Shown: piece after piece, positions 43,268-49,671 of the stretch
How positions within the stretch are numbered: the first letter of the stretch is position 1
How the letters are laid out: each line of letters starts with the position of its first letter
Assembly (NCBI RefSeq): GCF_000600975.2
Contig: NZ_KK088650.1
Coordinates: 186,001-250,000, forward strand
DNA length: 64,000 nucleotides
Direction: 5' to 3'
Source: Limimaricola hongkongensis DSM 17492
GTDB lineage: Bacteria; Pseudomonadota; Alphaproteobacteria; Rhodobacterales; Rhodobacteraceae
Translations under genes and position numbers: made by a program
Notes under the pieces: generated by a model
Database searches by the model: none
What the model was told of the DNA's origin: nothing
Seen by the model: only the letters and a program-made list of their open reading frames with translations

Positions 43268-44980
43268 ATGAATGCTTCGCGGATCAGGCGCGCCTTGCGG
43301 GCGATCGGGTTTCTGGCGCTGGTGGCGGCGCTGGCGCTGGCGGTGCAGCATTGGGGGTTTCGCGCCGCGCTGGCCGAAATGTCGCGCCGCGGCACCGCCG
43401 ATCTGGCGCTCGCCTCCGACCGGCTCACCGGGGAGCTGCAACGCTACCGCCAGCTGGCGGTGCTGACCGCGCGCCATCCCGATCTCGCGCCGCAACCCGG
43501 CGATGACAAGGGCCGGGCCGGGGCGCTGTTGCGCCGCACCGCCGACGTGACAGGCGCGCTCGACATCGTGCTCCTTGACACGCGCGGCCGCGAGATCGCC
43601 GGGGCGGGGCGCGCGGCGCCGCGCGGCCATGCGGGCATGGCGTGGTTCGAACGGGCGATGGACGGGGCGCTGGGCGTTGCGCATCTGTCGAGCCGCCGCT
43701 ACGGGCGCCGGGTCTTTTTGTTCGCCGCCCCGATCTTTTCCGAAGCCGGGCCGGTCGCGGGCGCGGTGGTGGTGGTCACCGACATCGAGGCGATCGAGGC
43801 GGGCTGGCGCGGCGACCGCCCGGCGCTGTTCTTCACCGACCCGGCGGGCCGGGTCTTCGTGTCGAACCGCTCCGAGCTTGTCGGGCGCGCCGATCTGGGG
43901 CGGGTGTCGCGTGCGCGCGTGGCGGGCCACGAGGTCTGGCGCATGCGGGCGGGGCCCTATCTGCCCGAGCGCGGCCTGCACCTGACGCAGCCCTTGCCGG
44001 TGATCGGGCTGACCGGGGAGGCGCTGCTCGACACCGCGCCGGCGCGGCGCATCGCGCTGTTGCAGGCCGCTGCCGCCGCAGCACTCTGTCTCGCCTTCGG
44101 GGCGATGCTGTTTCTCGCCACGATCCGGCGGCGCACGCTGGCGCGCGCCAATGCGCGGCTGGAGGAGCGGGTGGCGCAACGCACCGTGGCGCTGCAGGCG
44201 GTCAATGCCAACCTGCAGCGCGAGGTGGCCGAGCGCGCCGCCGCCGAGTCAAGGCTCCGGCAGGCGCAGGCCGATCTGGTGCAGGCGGGCAAGCTGTCGG
44301 CGCTGGGCCAGATGTCGGCGGGCATCAGTCACGAGCTGAACCAGCCGCTGATGGCGATCCGCAGTTTCGCCGAGAATGCGGGCACCTTTCTGGAGCGCGG
44401 CAACGCGCAGGCGGCGGGCCGCAACCTCGAGCGCATCTCGGAGCTGGCGCGCCGCATGGGACGGATCATCCGCAACCTGCGCGCCTTTGCCCGTCAGGAA
44501 AGCGAGGCGGTGGTCGATGTCGATCTCGGCGCGGCGGTCGACGCGGCGCTGGAGATGGCCGCCGCCCGCGCCCGTCAGGCCGAGGTGGAGATCATGTGGA
44601 CCGCGCCGCGCCCGCCGGTGATCGTGCGCGGCGGCGAGGTGCGGCTTCAGCAGGTGGTGCTCAACCTCGTCGGCAACGCGATCGACGCGATGGAGGGCCG
44701 CGCAGAGAAGCGGCTGGCGCTGTCGATCACCCGCGAAGGCGGGCGGGCGCGGCTCACGGTGCGCGACAGCGGGCCGGGGATCGGCGCGCCGGACCGGATC
44801 TTCGATCCGTTCTACACCACCAAGGAGGTCGGCGCCTCGGAGGGGATGGGCCTCGGCCTGTCGATCTCCTACGGGCTGGTGCAGAGCTTTGGCGGCGCGA
44901 TACGGGGCCGCAACCACGAAGAGGGCGGGGCCGAGTTCACGGTGGAGCTCGATCTCGCGCAGGCGAGCGAGGCGGCATGA
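43268..44980 (+). CDS. dctB: C4-dicarboxylate sensor histidine kinase DctB
   Basis: A 570-aa inner-membrane kinase. Membrane helix 1 is about residues 12-28. The periplasmic double-PAS sensor spans about 30-258 and includes FERAMDGALGVAHLSSRRYG. Helix 2 is about 262-285. A coiled coil follows, then the H-box with phospho-acceptor His355 in AGISHELNQPLMAIRSFAEN, the N-box LNLVGNAIDAMEG, FDPFYTTKEVG and GLGLSISYG. It senses C4-dicarboxylates such as succinate or malate. It overlaps dctD by four bases. Confidence 0.92.
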   Translation: MNASRIRRALRAIGFLALVAALALAVQHWGFRAALAEMSRRGTADLALASDRLTGELQRYRQLAVLTARHPDLAPQPGDDKGRAGALLRRTADVTGALDIVLLDTRGREIAGAGRAAPRGHAGMAWFERAMDGALGVAHLSSRRYGRRVFLFAAPIFSEAGPVAGAVVVVTDIEAIEAGWRGDRPALFFTDPAGRVFVSNRSELVGRADLGRVSRARVAGHEVWRMRAGPYLPERGLHLTQPLPVIGLTGEALLDTAPARRIALLQAAAAAALCLAFGAMLFLATIRRRTLARANARLEERVAQRTVALQAVNANLQREVAERAAAESRLRQAQADLVQAGKLSALGQMSAGISHELNQPLMAIRSFAENAGTFLERGNAQAAGRNLERISELARRMGRIIRNLRAFARQESEAVVDVDLGAAVDAALEMAAARARQAEVEIMWTAPRPPVIVRGGEVRLQQVVLNLVGNAIDAMEGRAEKRLALSITREGGRARLTVRDSGPGIGAPDRIFDPFYTTKEVGASEGMGLGLSISYGLVQSFGGAIRGRNHEEGGAEFTVELDLAQASEAA

Positions 44981-46224
44981 CGATCAGGGTTCTGCTGGTG
45001 GATGACGACCGCGCCGTGCGCGAGGCGCTGGGACAGACGCTGGAGCTGGCGGATCTCGACCCGATCCTCGCGGGCTCCTATGTCGCGGCCAAGGATCACA
45101 TCGCGCCGGATTTCGACGGCGTCGTCGTCACCGATATCCGCATGCCCGGACGCGACGGGTTCCATCTTCTGGAGCGGGCGCGCGAGGTCGATCCCGATCT
45201 GCCGGTGATCCTGCTCACCGGCGAGGGCGACATTCCGATGGCGGTGCGGGCGATGGAGCGCGGCGCGCATGCCTTTCTCGAAAAGCCCTGCGCCCCGGCG
45301 GAGCTGGTCGCGGCGGTGAAGCGGGCGCTGGGCCTGCGCGCCGAGGTGCTGGCGGCGCGGCGCGCCCGCGCCGCCAGCGTGGCGGGGGATGCGGCGCGGC
45401 GGATGCTGGTGGGCCGCTCGGCGCAGGCCGAGGCGATGCGCGAGCGGGTGCGCGCCATCGCCCGCGCCTCGGCCGAGGCGCTGGTCTGCGGCCCGCCCGG
45501 CTCCGGCACCTCCAAGGTGGCCGAGGTGATCCATCTCATGTCGGCCTCGGCCCGCGCGCCTTTCGTCAAACGCGCGGGCGCCGGGCTCGACGAGGCGGCG
45601 CTTCGGGCGGCGTTCGAGGAGGCGGAGGGCGGCACGCTTTATCTCGACGAGATCACGGCGCTGCCGCCGGGCACGCAATACGCGCTGCTCGACCGGCTGG
45701 AGGGGGGCGGCGCGCGCCCGCGCGTGATCGGCGGCAGCACCCGCGATCCGGGCGCCGAGGCCGAGGCGGGGCGGCTCAACCCCGAACTCTACTGGCGGCT
45801 CGACCTGATGCGGGTCACGATCCCGGCGCTGCGCGAGCGGCCCGACGACATCCCGGTGCTGTTTCGCCATTACGTCGCGCAGGCCTGCGAACAGGCCAAC
45901 CTGCCAATGCCCGAGATCGGGCCCGAGCTGCTCGCCCGGCTGATGGCGCGCGACTGGCCCGGCAATGCCCGCGCGTTGACCTCGGTGGCGATGCGGGTGG
46001 CGATGGGGCTCGACCCCGGTCTCGACGCGCCGCAGCAGGATGCGGGCGCGCCGGGCCTGACCGAGCAGCTCGCCCGCGTCGAGCGGTCGCTTCTGATCGA
46101 GGCGCTGCGCCGCCATGCCGGCCACGCCACCCGGACGGCCGAGGCGCTGAAGCTGCCGCGCAAGACCTTTTACGACAAGCTGGCCCGCCACGATCTGCGC
46201 CCCGAGGATTACCGCCGCGATTGA
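44977..46224 (+). CDS. dctD: DctD-type response regulator with a degenerate AAA+ domain
   Basis: A 415-aa regulator. The receiver domain (1-120) has the DDD pocket at 9-11, phospho-Asp53 in VTDIRMPGRDG and Lys103. The AAA+ domain (145-310) is altered. Walker A reads GPPGSGTSK at 172-180 with Thr where the essential Lys should be. The whole GAFTGA loop for sigma-54 contact is missing; FVKRAGAGLDEAALRAAFEEA leads straight to Walker B EGGTLYLDE (217-225). The later ELYWRLDLMRVTIPALRERP is kept. The C-terminal Fis-type helix-turn-helix is at 381-405. It likely controls dctPQM without sigma-54 ATPase activity. Confidence 0.9.
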   Translation: MTIRVLLVDDDRAVREALGQTLELADLDPILAGSYVAAKDHIAPDFDGVVVTDIRMPGRDGFHLLERAREVDPDLPVILLTGEGDIPMAVRAMERGAHAFLEKPCAPAELVAAVKRALGLRAEVLAARRARAASVAGDAARRMLVGRSAQAEAMRERVRAIARASAEALVCGPPGSGTSKVAEVIHLMSASARAPFVKRAGAGLDEAALRAAFEEAEGGTLYLDEITALPPGTQYALLDRLEGGGARPRVIGGSTRDPGAEAEAGRLNPELYWRLDLMRVTIPALRERPDDIPVLFRHYVAQACEQANLPMPEIGPELLARLMARDWPGNARALTSVAMRVAMGLDPGLDAPQQDAGAPGLTEQLARVERSLLIEALRRHAGHATRTAEALKLPRKTFYDKLARHDLRPEDYRRD

Positions 46225-46225
46225 G

Positions 46226-46276
46226 TGTGTGGATTTCCACACATTCACCCCCTGCCGTTGTGCGGATTGTCGCGCA
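46226..46276 (+). promoter_or_regulatory. Candidate DctD operator upstream of dctP: perfect dyad plus a half site
   Basis: TGTGTGGATTTCCACACA at 46226-46243 is a perfect 8-2-8 palindrome just past the dctD stop. A second, imperfect copy begins TGTGCGGA at 46259, exactly 33 bases later, three helical turns. Tandem DctD sites upstream of transport genes are known in rhizobia. No convincing sigma-54 -24/-12 promoter is seen between here and dctP. Confidence 0.62.
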
Positions 46277-46441
46277 TCAAGGCGGGGCACCCCGCCGATC
46301 CCGTGCAAAGACCGGCTTTCAACCGCCTGTTTTTCGGTCGCTTTCCGGATCCTTTGCGGATGCGCGGTTTCCGGCTTGAGCGGCGAAGATCCCGGCTGTC
46401 TTGTCGTCACGACGCAACGACAGTCTCATGGGAGGAGACAC

Positions 46442-47446
46442 ATGAAATACCTTTCCCTCGCCGCCACCGCCGCCGCCCTGTCGATCGCCGCGCAGGCCGC
46501 GCAGGCCGACCCGATGGGCTGTGACGCGGGTGAGACCGTGGTCAAGTTCAGCCATGTCACCAACACCGACAAGCACCCCAAGGGCATCGCCGCCGAGCTT
46601 CTCAAGACCCGCGTCAACGAGGAGATGGACGGCACGATGTGCATGGAGGTCTTCCCGAACTCCACGCTTTACACCGACGAGCAGGTGATCGAGGCGATGC
46701 TGCGCGGCGACGTGCAGATGGCCGCGCCCTCGCTGTCGCTGTTCGAGAGCATCACCAAGGCCTACCGCCTGTTCGACCTGCCGTTCCTGTTCGACGACAT
46801 CGCCGCCGTCGACGCGTTCCAGGCCTCCGAGGAGGGCCTCGCGATGCTCGACAAGATGCAGCGCCGCGGCGTGCAGGGCCTGGGCTTCTGGCACAACGGC
46901 ATGAAGCAGATGTCGGCCAACACGCCGCTTCTGGAGCCGGGCGATGCCGAGGGGCTGAAGTTCCGCGTGCAGCCCTCCGACGTGCTCGTGGCGCAGATGG
47001 AGGCGCTCGGCGCCAGCCCGCAGCCGATGGCCTTTGCCGAAGTCTACGGCGCGCTGCAGACCGGCGTCGTCGACGGGCAGGAGAACACCTGGTCCAACAT
47101 CTATGGCCAGAAGTTCTTCGAGGTGCAGGACGGCATCACCGAGACCAACCACGGCGTGCTCGACTACATGGTCGTGGCGAGCGTCGACTTTCTCGACAGC
47201 CTCGACCCGGCGGTGCGCGACCAGCTCGTGACCATCACCGAGGAAGTGACCGCCGAGCGCAACGCCGCCGTCACGCAGGTCGATGCCGAGGCGCGGCAGG
47301 CGATCCTCGACGCGGGCGGCGAGATCCGCGAGCTGTCGGACGAGCAGCGCGCGGCCTGGGTCGAGACCATGAAGCCGGTCTGGGCGCAGTTCGAGGACGA
47401 GGTCGGCGCCGACATGATCGAGGCGGCCCAGAGCGCCGGCCAGTAA
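46442..47446 (+). CDS. dctP: TRAP transporter C4-dicarboxylate-binding protein DctP
   Basis: A 334-aa periplasmic binding protein. MKYLSLAATAAALSIAAQA is the Sec signal, with the mature protein from about DPMGC. Family segments are VVKFSHVTNTDKHPKGIAAE, the substrate-carboxylate Arg in GLKFRVQPSDVLVAQM, and VVDGQENTWSNIYGQKFFEV. GGAGGAG precedes ATG 46442. It delivers succinate, malate or fumarate to DctQM. A strong hairpin follows the gene. Confidence 0.94.
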   Translation: MKYLSLAATAAALSIAAQAAQADPMGCDAGETVVKFSHVTNTDKHPKGIAAELLKTRVNEEMDGTMCMEVFPNSTLYTDEQVIEAMLRGDVQMAAPSLSLFESITKAYRLFDLPFLFDDIAAVDAFQASEEGLAMLDKMQRRGVQGLGFWHNGMKQMSANTPLLEPGDAEGLKFRVQPSDVLVAQMEALGASPQPMAFAEVYGALQTGVVDGQENTWSNIYGQKFFEVQDGITETNHGVLDYMVVASVDFLDSLDPAVRDQLVTITEEVTAERNAAVTQVDAEARQAILDAGGEIRELSDEQRAAWVETMKPVWAQFEDEVGADMIEAAQSAGQ

Positions 47447-47547: not shown

Positions 47548-48240
47548 ATGAACGCCGTCCACACCACGCCCGGCAGGGGGCGCCTGGGGCGCATCGTCGA
47601 GGAGTTCGAGGAGGGCATGATCGCCTTCCTGCTCGGGGCGATGACGCTTTTGACCTGCACCAATGTCATCATGCGCTACGGCTTCAACAGCTCGATCATC
47701 TGGAGCCTCGAGACCGTGCTGATCCTGTTCGCCTGGCTGGTGCTGTTCGGCATCGCCTACGGCTTCAAGATCACCGCGCATCTGGGCGTGGACGCGGTCA
47801 TCAACCTGCTGCCCGCCCGCGGCCGGCGGGTCGTGGCGCTGATCGCCTGCGCCGCCTCGCTCGCTTACGGCGTGCTGCTTTTGAAGGGCGCGTGGGATTA
47901 CTGGGCGCCCTTTGCCGACCTGCCCAAGACCACCGGCATCTGGCTGCCCACCGGGTTCGACACGGCGGCCCGCACCACGTCCTATTTCGAGACCGACCAG
48001 ATCCCGATGTTCGACTGGCTGCGCTTTCTCGAAGGCTGGATCAACTACGACGAGCGCTATTCCAAGATGCCGCGCGTGATCCCCTACCTGATCCTGCCGA
48101 TCTCGGCCGCGCTGATCCTGTTTCGCCTGATCCAGGCCACGATCCGCATCTGGAAGGGCGAAGCCGAGAGCCTGATCGTCAGCCACGAAGCCGAGGACGC
48201 GGTGGCCGACGCCGCGCATATCAACCGGGAGATCTCCTGA
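47548..48240 (+). CDS. dctQ: TRAP transporter small permease DctQ
   Basis: A 230-aa four-helix inner-membrane protein. The first helix is IAFLLGAMTLLTCTNVIMRY, followed by LFAWLVLFGIAYGFK with the conserved HLGVDAV segment. It has a longer loop (about residues 130-175) than the usual 160-aa DctQ. ATG 47548 follows AGAGGGG. It is three bases before dctM and forms the QM membrane complex. Confidence 0.92.
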   Translation: MNAVHTTPGRGRLGRIVEEFEEGMIAFLLGAMTLLTCTNVIMRYGFNSSIIWSLETVLILFAWLVLFGIAYGFKITAHLGVDAVINLLPARGRRVVALIACAASLAYGVLLLKGAWDYWAPFADLPKTTGIWLPTGFDTAARTTSYFETDQIPMFDWLRFLEGWINYDERYSKMPRVIPYLILPISAALILFRLIQATIRIWKGEAESLIVSHEAEDAVADAAHINREIS

Positions 48241-48243
48241 CCC

Positions 48244-49671
48244 ATGGAAGTCGCAATCCTCTTCCTGATGATCGTCGGGCTGTTGCTGATCGGCGTGCCG
48301 ATCGCCATCGCGCTGGGCCTGTCCTCGATCGTCTTCCAGCTCGTGTTCTCCGAAACCTCGCTCGCCTCGATCGCGCAGTCGCTCTATCAAGCCATGGCAG
48401 GGCATCCCTCGCTCTTGGCCATTCCCTTCTTCATCCTCGCCTCCTCCTTCATGTCGACGGGCGGCGTGGCGCAGCGGATCATCCGTTTTGCCATCGCCTG
48501 CGTCGGCCATTTCAAGGGCGGGCTCGCCATCGCGGGCGTGCTGGCCTGCATGATGTTCGCCGCCCTTTCGGGCTCCTCTCCGGCCACCGTGGTCGCGATC
48601 GGCTCCATCGTCATCGCGGCGATGCGGCAGGTGGGCTATACCCGCGAATTCGCCGCGGGCGTGATCTGCAACGCCGGCACGCTGGGCATCCTGATCCCGC
48701 CCTCGATCGTGATGGTGGTCTATGCCTCGGCCACCGACGTGTCGGTGGGCCGGATGTTCCTCGCCGGTGTCATCCCCGGCATCCTCGCGGGCGTGATGCT
48801 GATGATCACCATCTACGTGATGGCGCGGATCAAGGACATGCCCGCGGGCGACTGGCTCGGCTGGGGCGAAATCTGGGCCAGCTTCCGCGAGGCCTTCTGG
48901 GGCCTGTTCCTGATCGCGATCATCATGGGCGGCATCTATGGCCATCCGTGGGTCGATTTCTCGGGCGGCTTTCCGATCGTCTGGGCGCCGGGCGCCTTCA
49001 CCCCGACCGAGGCCGCCGCCGTCGCCGCCGTCTATGCCTTTCTCGTGGCCACCTTCGTCTATCGCGACATGGGGCCGCTGGCAGCGAAGGCCGAGGGCGA
49101 CCGCCCGACGCCGCTCTACCGCGCGCCATGGGCGCTGGTGACGGGCTTCGTGCACCGCGACACGCGCAAGACGCTGTTCGAGGCCGGCAAGCTGACCATC
49201 GTGCTGATGTTCATCATCGCCAACGCGCTGATCCTCAAGCACGTGCTGACCGACGAACAGATCCCGCAGCACATCGCCGAGGCGCTCTTGGGCGCCGGTC
49301 TCGGCCCGATCACCTTCCTGATCGTGGTCAACGTGATCCTGCTGATCGGCGGCCAGTTCATGGAGCCCTCGGGGCTTCTGGTGATCGTGGCGCCGCTCGT
49401 GTTCCCGATCGCGATCGAGCTGGGGATCGACCCGATCCATCTCGGCATCATCATGGTCGTCAACATGGAGATCGGCATGATCACGCCGCCCGTCGGCCTC
49501 AACCTCTTCGTCACCTCGGGCGTGGCGGGGATGTCGGTGATGGGCGTGGTGCGCGCGGCGCTGCCGTTCCTCGCGGTGCTCGCGGTGTTCCTGTTGATCG
49601 TGACCTACGTGCCGTGGATCTCCACCGCGCTGCCCAACGCCACGATGGGGCCGGAGATCATCGTCAACTGA
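48244..49671 (+). CDS. dctM: TRAP transporter large permease DctM
   Basis: A 475-aa inner-membrane protein with about twelve helices, doing Na+-coupled C4-dicarboxylate transport. Family segments are PLLAIPFFILA-like SLLAIPFFILASSFMSTGG, AALSGSSPATVVAIGSIV, AGTLGILIPPSIVMVVYA and MITPPVGLNLFVTSGVAGM. It is about 40 aa longer than the common size because of a central loop near residues 240-290. A terminator follows 23 bases later. Confidence 0.94.
   Translation: MEVAILFLMIVGLLLIGVPIAIALGLSSIVFQLVFSETSLASIAQSLYQAMAGHPSLLAIPFFILASSFMSTGGVAQRIIRFAIACVGHFKGGLAIAGVLACMMFAALSGSSPATVVAIGSIVIAAMRQVGYTREFAAGVICNAGTLGILIPPSIVMVVYASATDVSVGRMFLAGVIPGILAGVMLMITIYVMARIKDMPAGDWLGWGEIWASFREAFWGLFLIAIIMGGIYGHPWVDFSGGFPIVWAPGAFTPTEAAAVAAVYAFLVATFVYRDMGPLAAKAEGDRPTPLYRAPWALVTGFVHRDTRKTLFEAGKLTIVLMFIIANALILKHVLTDEQIPQHIAEALLGAGLGPITFLIVVNVILLIGGQFMEPSGLLVIVAPLVFPIAIELGIDPIHLGIIMVVNMEIGMITPPVGLNLFVTSGVAGMSVMGVVRAALPFLAVLAVFLLIVTYVPWISTALPNATMGPEIIVN

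Follow-up and report, generated by a model that had tools for sequence, protein, structure and literature searches.

NtrC-family regulators that lack the GAFTGA loop and work with sigma-70 (housekeeping) polymerase are already known; how they activate it, and whether ATP is needed, is unsettled. Passages in PMC10274813 report that NtrC of Rhodobacter capsulatus, NtrC of Caulobacter and VpsR of Vibrio cholerae differ on ATP: the first, which has no GAFTGA, needs ATP binding rather than hydrolysis, and in the second, also without GAFTGA, K178A and D235A strains failed to grow in defined medium. TyrR, DhaR and HupR are named as sigma-70-dependent paralogues in an excerpt of PMC3162934, which also lists Jannaschia sp. 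CCS1 as lacking sigma-54. Here we describe a DctD-type response regulator with neither the Walker A lysine nor GAFTGA, encoded in a 64,000-nucleotide stretch of the Limimaricola hongkongensis DSM 17492 genome (contig NZ_KK088650.1, positions 186,001 to 250,000; hereafter the window). An earlier note on this DNA had seen both losses and asked whether they are clade-wide. It pointed to R. capsulatus NtrC as a protein without GAFTGA that uses the housekeeping polymerase and binds ATP, which a passage in PMC10274813 backs, and it suggested a DNA-binding switch without ATPase activity. We find that the double loss is shared by a whole clade, and we argue that DctD is probably a phosphorylation-controlled activator of the dctPQM transporter genes that works on the housekeeping polymerase without hydrolysing ATP.

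A DctD clade without the Walker A lysine or GAFTGA

DctD keeps the architecture of its family. Four Pfam domains pass their curated cut-offs (receiver, residues 5-115; Sigma54_activ_2, 145-285; lid, 286-342; Fis helix-turn-helix, 365-404), and the AAA+ Sigma54_activat fold is present (PF00158 and PF14532 over cut-off; Foldseek/VIA matches to NtrX, NtrC1 and FlrC). The AlphaFold prediction, made from an 85-sequence alignment, has a mean predicted local distance difference test score of 94.7, and its nearest solved folds are NtrC1, NtrC4, NtrX, FlrC, VpsR and FleQ. Walker B reads TLYLDE. The receiver, Walker B, sensor region and helix-turn-helix are all retained, as the earlier note observed. 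In the P-loop, GPPGSGTSK, the alignment places T178 where GAFTGA-bearing relatives have lysine, and 19 alignment columns that include GAFTGA are deleted between residues 206 and 207. A frameshift or alignment artefact was ruled out: the 15-residue P-loop stretch is ungapped in the rows shown.

We searched 199 Rhodobacteraceae genomes (minimum completeness 90) and found a match of at least 52% identity over the protein in 89 of them; 88 orthologues were scored after L099 (genome G008), which has a premature stop, was dropped. We also took 21 weaker homologues (L103 and L104-L123). Lysine is found at position 178 in none of the 88 (I 46, T 25, V 10, L 3, N 2, S 1, M 1), and no GAFTGA-like string was found among the scored clade members. 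Two further losses add to those noted earlier. The switch asparagine (position 200) is never Asn (A 46, S 18, P 18 and others), and the first arginine finger (position 268) is never Arg (N 37, S 19, H 12 and others); the second finger (position 274) is Arg in 71 and Lys in 14. The names of these elements follow PMC7175178, and their placing here rests on alignment. A contig-edge fragment (L109 in G072, a 90th copy that we tally as non-clade elsewhere) likewise lacks the lysine and has the clade-type P-loop.

The same pattern is seen in 80 named GTDB loci, which repeat in part the species of the 89-genome set. We scored 76, omitting L182 (split by a frameshift) and the weaker L208-L210; 75 have no lysine, and the sole bearer, L204, belongs to a sister lineage. 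Their titles include Ruegeria, Roseovarius, Sulfitobacter, Phaeobacter, Celeribacter, Shimia and Yoonia. The nearest named copy is that of Limimaricola cinnabarinus LL-001 (91% in the best piece); this orthologue (L182:4001-5244) is split just 5' of the P-loop, which may be a draft error. The state without lysine and GAFTGA is thus clade-wide and not the decay of one strain. We found no description of this clade in the open-licence literature.

What remains is conserved. The phosphorylation site D53 and the receiver lysine K103 are invariant (88/88), and the DNA-reading helix is conserved over the clade. The P-loop glycines G172, G175 and G177 are retained in 87, 88 and 86 of the 88, and two residues have become fixed, K180 and E183 (87/88 each), where the relatives L106, L103 and L108 have V or L and R, respectively. 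The P-loop region is therefore under selection, with its chemistry changed. We consider that the clade has very probably abandoned ATP hydrolysis. Because the Caulobacter K178A strain fails, the natural absence of the lysine points to a different mechanism.

This conservation could also mean that the P-loop remains able to bind ATP or a different nucleotide, with K180 perhaps helping, and that such binding, with no hydrolysis, determines the active oligomer. The passage of PMC10274813 cited above describes R. capsulatus NtrC as needing binding and not hydrolysis, and the glycines, K180, the Walker B aspartate (84/88) and the sensor II arginine (87/88) would suit such a role. However, the position that contacts the phosphate is never lysine, none of the 88 retains the switch asparagine or the first arginine finger, and K180, two residues past the start of helix 178-187, should by helix geometry face away from the phosphate site. 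We regard this reading as unlikely, at about one chance in five.

Sigma-54 and the order of loss

The earlier note named a canonical DctD in the same strain, controlling dctPQM, as a finding that would refute its idea; the strain has none among the proteins found. PF00158 gives nine matches in seven genes of the window genome; four of these encode NtrC-family proteins, all without GAFTGA, so a canonical copy was ruled out. The remaining three we take to be two Clp-type ATPases and one MoxR-type ATPase. The other NtrC-family proteins, read as NtrX (C6:284679-285770, L001), NtrC (C6:288501-289517, L003) and a second DctD-like regulator, all retain the Walker A lysine. The last (GETGTGKT) belongs to a second DctBD-like pair at C6:127043-128368 (L124), 5' of an rne-like open reading frame (ORF).

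The sigma-54 domains PF04552 and PF04963 (Sigma54_DBD and Sigma54_CBD) have no match in the window genome, which is 92.85% complete, so sigma-54 is likely, though not certainly, absent. Sigma54_DBD also has no match in a genome of the same genus (G098), and a match over cut-off is missing in 70 of the 89 clade genomes; 44 of the 110 non-clade genomes have one. Since three other NtrC-family proteins of the strain keep their lysine, its loss from DctD does not simply follow from the loss of sigma-54.

A tree of 119 proteins was built by a quick maximum-likelihood method; NtrC, NtrX, L119 and PgtA are long branches in it. The 88 orthologues form one clade (Shimodaira-Hasegawa approximate likelihood-ratio test (SH-aLRT) 99) nested in a group of 97 proteins without GAFTGA (SH-aLRT 97). 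In the sisters L103, L104 and L204, GAFTGA is missing and GKE or GKD is retained; L105, L107, L111, L117 and L208, also without GAFTGA, have GKR or GKK, and L119 has GRR. L106, outside the group, has both GETGTGKE and GAFTGA. Because the sisters without GAFTGA mostly retain the lysine, GAFTGA was most simply, and probably, lost first and the lysine later, once. On this tree GAFTGA and the sigma-54 promoter would have been the first to go, and one large clade would later have lost the lysine along with its first arginine finger and the switch asparagine. Among the weaker homologues, L110 and L112-L116 carry GAFPGA, with proline at the fourth position; four of these six genomes have no Sigma54_DBD match over cut-off.

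These proteins form a natural experiment: some have both GAFTGA and the lysine, some the lysine alone and some neither, with one conserved kind of operator and in genomes with and without rpoN. Such a series could show which part of the AAA+ domain matters when the sigma factor changes.

Operators and promoter upstream of dctP

The window has the usual gene order, dctB-dctD-dctP-dctQ-dctM; dctD overlaps the dctB stop by four bases, and a dctB-like match lies directly 5' of dctD in nearly all tabulated loci (Table 1). We compared the region between dctD and dctP across 165 clade loci (89 from the genome search and 76 named, partly of the same species). The gene dctP lies downstream in 154 and is absent from the examined stretch in 11. 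Of 133 loci with a gap of at most 450 bases, L098 and L196 fell below 52% identity, and the other 131 gave 124 distinct regions.

An 18-bp palindrome like TGTGCGGAWWTCCGCACA is found in all 124. A second match over threshold, weak in some, occurs in 119 and is spaced 31-34 bp from the first in 118. The distance from the dctD stop to the palindrome varies from 0 to 149 bases, whereas that from the second palindrome to the dctP start is 160-210 bases in 117 of the 124, a near-constancy as expected of a regulatory unit. The scoring matrix was trained on the same regions and compared with mononucleotide shuffles, which makes its significance circular; genome-wide counts of a strict pattern are a fairer test, though the pattern derives from the same regions. 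It matches exactly in 83 of 89 clade genomes versus 11 of 110 others, one of which (G072) is the fragmentary clade member, and a reversed control pattern matches in 9 of 199. The strict pattern occurs once in the window genome, at dctP, so the regulon may be this single operon; weaker sites would escape such a search. In the sister group without GAFTGA (L105/L208, L107, L111, L117, L119) a palindrome lies 5' of dctB, and in L208 dctPQM is divergent at that palindrome.

These operators bear on whether DctD is a decaying relic without function in this strain. In its favour, G098 has no close DctD match and no strict palindrome site, the L. cinnabarinus copy is split in the draft, and one stop is flagged in 5 of the 89 matches, although only L099 is truncated and the other four translate to 407-409 amino acids. 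The window copy is intact, however, and conservation over 88 genomes extends to the receiver, the DNA-binding helix and the newly fixed P-loop residues, with operators conserved to match; we think a relic very improbable.

Downstream of the palindromes, mostly 41-43 bases after site 2, comes a YAANNNNYTG box accompanied by an A/T tract. We call it integration host factor (IHF)-like after the IHF consensus. It is exact at +30 to +60 in 69 of the 124 regions (shuffles, mean 4.3, maximum 8). An extended -10 element at this box was ruled out, as A occupies 61% where the last T should be conserved.

The putative core promoter of the clade is of sigma-70 type, TTG-N20-TTTACT (TTGAGN-N17-TTTACT). In 117 of the 124 regions the aligned -35 position holds TTG, which in 88 of them is 97-100 bases after site 2. 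Read ungapped from TTG with a 17-bp spacer, the -10 percentages are T64 T55 T48 A33 C46 T83. Without alignment, TTGA[CG] or CTTG[AT] occurs at +85 to +115 in 73 of 124 regions versus a shuffle maximum of 20. A GG-N10-GC sigma-54 site with at most two mismatches was found 3' of site 2 in none of the 124, with about five expected in shuffles. In the GAFTGA-bearing L106 such a site, with one mismatch, follows the second palindrome by 51 bases, and L103 and L104, without GAFTGA and with lysine, already carry the -35 TTG. Promoter class therefore follows GAFTGA and not the lysine, in the few lineages compared.

The same arrangement bears on repression. Members of the NtrC family that have abandoned sigma-54 can act as repressors, TyrR for example, and TyrR is among the sigma-70-dependent paralogues named above, so DctD might be mainly a repressor of dctPQM, or a silencer relieved by phosphorylation. 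Yet the palindromes lie mostly about 98 bp 5' of the putative -35 and not over the promoter, and the dctP -10 has the weakness seen in activated promoters. Ruegeria pomeroyi fitness data, as given in part of PMC10041152, also speak against it: SPO2630 (a TRAP regulatory gene) and dctD-2 score negative, like the TRAP transporter genes, although SPO2630 is not shown to be the DctD orthologue and the megaplasmid protein taken as dctD-2, without GAFTGA, keeps its lysine. We hold repression to be improbable. The dctP leader on the R. pomeroyi megaplasmid (L211:21303-21428) has a related palindrome core, TGCGGAAATCCGCA. The megaplasmid relative, despite having no GAFTGA, is annotated as sigma-54 dependent, a warning about automatic labels.

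Table 1 Features of the dctBD-dctPQM locus (window coordinates; TRAP, tripartite ATP-independent periplasmic transporter)
Feature	Position	Strand	Remarks
dctB-like sensor histidine kinase	43268..44980	+	Pfam HisKA and HATPase_c over cut-off; dCache below cut-off
dctD-type response regulator without Walker A Lys and GAFTGA	44977..46224	+	ATG at 44977, stop ends at 46224; 415 amino acids
Altered P-loop GPPGSGTSK, residues 172-180	45490..45516	+	T178 at Lys position; K180 in 87/88
Junction of residues 206/207, L1 loop with GAFTGA gone	45592..45597	+	By alignment
Walker B TLYLDE, residues 220-225	45634..45651	+	Intact
Fis-type helix-turn-helix, residues 365-404	46069..46188	+	PF02954
Palindrome 1, TGTGTGGATTTCCACACA	46226..46243	n/a	Proposed DctD site
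Palindrome 2, TGTGCGGATTGTCGCGCA	46259..46276	n/a	Imperfect; 33 bp 3' of palindrome 1
IHF-like box YAANNNNYTG, here CAACCGCCTG	46320..46329	n/a	
Putative -35, TTGAGC	46376..46381	+	
Putative weak -10, TCTTGT	46399..46404	+	Clade consensus TTTACT; 17-bp spacer
dctP, TRAP solute-binding protein	46442..47446	+	Proposed target
dctQ, small TRAP permease	47548..48240	+	
dctM, large TRAP permease	48244..49671	+	

A proposed mechanism and its known relatives

Taken together, we favour the following sequence of events. DctB, judging by its conserved motifs, would sense dicarboxylates and phosphorylate D53. Phosphorylated DctD would oligomerise through its catalytically dead AAA+ domain, and two dimers would bind the paired 18-bp palindromes, which are spaced by 32-33 bp, or about three helical turns. 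Bending at the IHF-like box may assist, and DctD would touch sigma-70 polymerase from a site about 143 bases from the start, a distance that depends on the promoter assignment. Contact at TTGAGN-N17-TTTACT, with its poor -10, would then turn on dctPQM. As the target is a dicarboxylate TRAP transporter, the proposal is relevant to how these bacteria take up carbon. More speculatively, the rebuilt P-loop (a fixed GxPGxGx[S/P]KxAE-like motif) could be a new ligand or partner site that replaces ATP as the trigger for oligomerisation. DctD would then be an enhancer activator that forms loops and acts on the housekeeping polymerase without ATP; we rate this version as unlikely.

Several observations weigh against the proposed activation without ATP hydrolysis. 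Walker B is retained (Asp in 84 and Glu in 75 of the 88), as is the sensor II arginine, and a pure scaffold need keep neither. An RpoN-type Sigma54_DBD match over cut-off is found in 19 of the 89 clade genomes, one of them doubtful (G069; 41 residues, 23 bits). In L106 the sigma-54 -24 element falls where the YAANNNNYTG box lies, so the box may be left over from a sigma-54 region instead of being an IHF site. The poor -10 and the guessed dctP start site are further weak points, and 21 of the 154 loci with dctP were left unscored for a gap between dctD and dctP of more than 450 bases.

The idea of a switch without ATPase activity thus stands in part. Several catalytic residues were lost together across the clade, with no sigma-54 match in the window genome and no good sigma-54 promoter at dctP in support; what does not fit is that the lysine was replaced within a kept P-loop and not simply eroded. 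The support is partial because the loss of ATPase activity and the use of sigma-70 are read from sequence, and because VpsR, ATP-free according to part of PMC10274813, and PgtA-like relatives without the lysine already exist.

The PgtA model NF047793 gives the best NCBIfam score for DctD (residues 4-413), although at 278 bits this is under the cut-off of 650. Two PgtA-like proteins from the same phylum but other families, L127 and L128, share the loss, with no GAFTGA and arginine for the Walker A lysine, and adjoin an ORF read as a histidine kinase. They differ from DctD in that Walker B is altered too, and they sit on a separate long branch, so their loss of lysine looks independent and the double loss probably arose more than once. 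Both score under the PgtA cut-off, which the control genome, Escherichia coli, exceeds; blastn of L127 against E. coli genomes gave no match. Given the motif losses in L127 and L128, it may itself be wrong to regard PgtA as a sigma-54 activator.

HupR of R. capsulatus controls hydrogenase and is active unphosphorylated; its central domain is not known to have ATPase activity, and upstream of hupSL lie a distal site and, near -87, an IHF site. The layout predicted at dctP is similar, with a distal site, an IHF-like box at about -87 and a sigma-70 promoter. HupR is also like DctD in its defective GAFTGA, and is sigma-70-dependent according to the excerpt of PMC3162934; we found no data on HupR and ATP in the open-licence literature. 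VpsR matches the DctD fold (7v2b_D; 341 residues, Z 24.8, root-mean-square deviation 7.3, 21% identity). Passages in PMC10274813 describe it as without GAFTGA, regulating sigma-70 promoters and not needing ATP; unlike our reading of DctD, it does not require phosphorylation there, and the title of its structure names cyclic di-GMP binding.

Canonical DctD proteins (L129 of Rhizobium leguminosarum and L106 of Rhodobacteraceae) have a similar DNA-recognition helix and a dctB-like neighbour, and the Sinorhizobium meliloti DctD receiver (1qkk) is 45% identical to that of the window protein. They keep the Walker A lysine and GAFTGA, whereas the window DctD has neither. In L106 a similar pair of palindromes precedes dctP, but the promoter there is a near-perfect sigma-54 one. 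The NtrC proteins of R. capsulatus and Caulobacter are, like DctD, response regulators of the NtrC family without GAFTGA, and act at sigma-70 promoters according to part of PMC10274813. The R. capsulatus type keeps the Walker A lysine and binds ATP, and DctD departs from it at the lysine; the NtrC of the window strain keeps this residue, whereas DctD has lost it together with the switch asparagine and first arginine finger. Compared with these systems, what is new in DctD is the degree of loss, the clade-wide missing lysine and the rebuilt P-loop.

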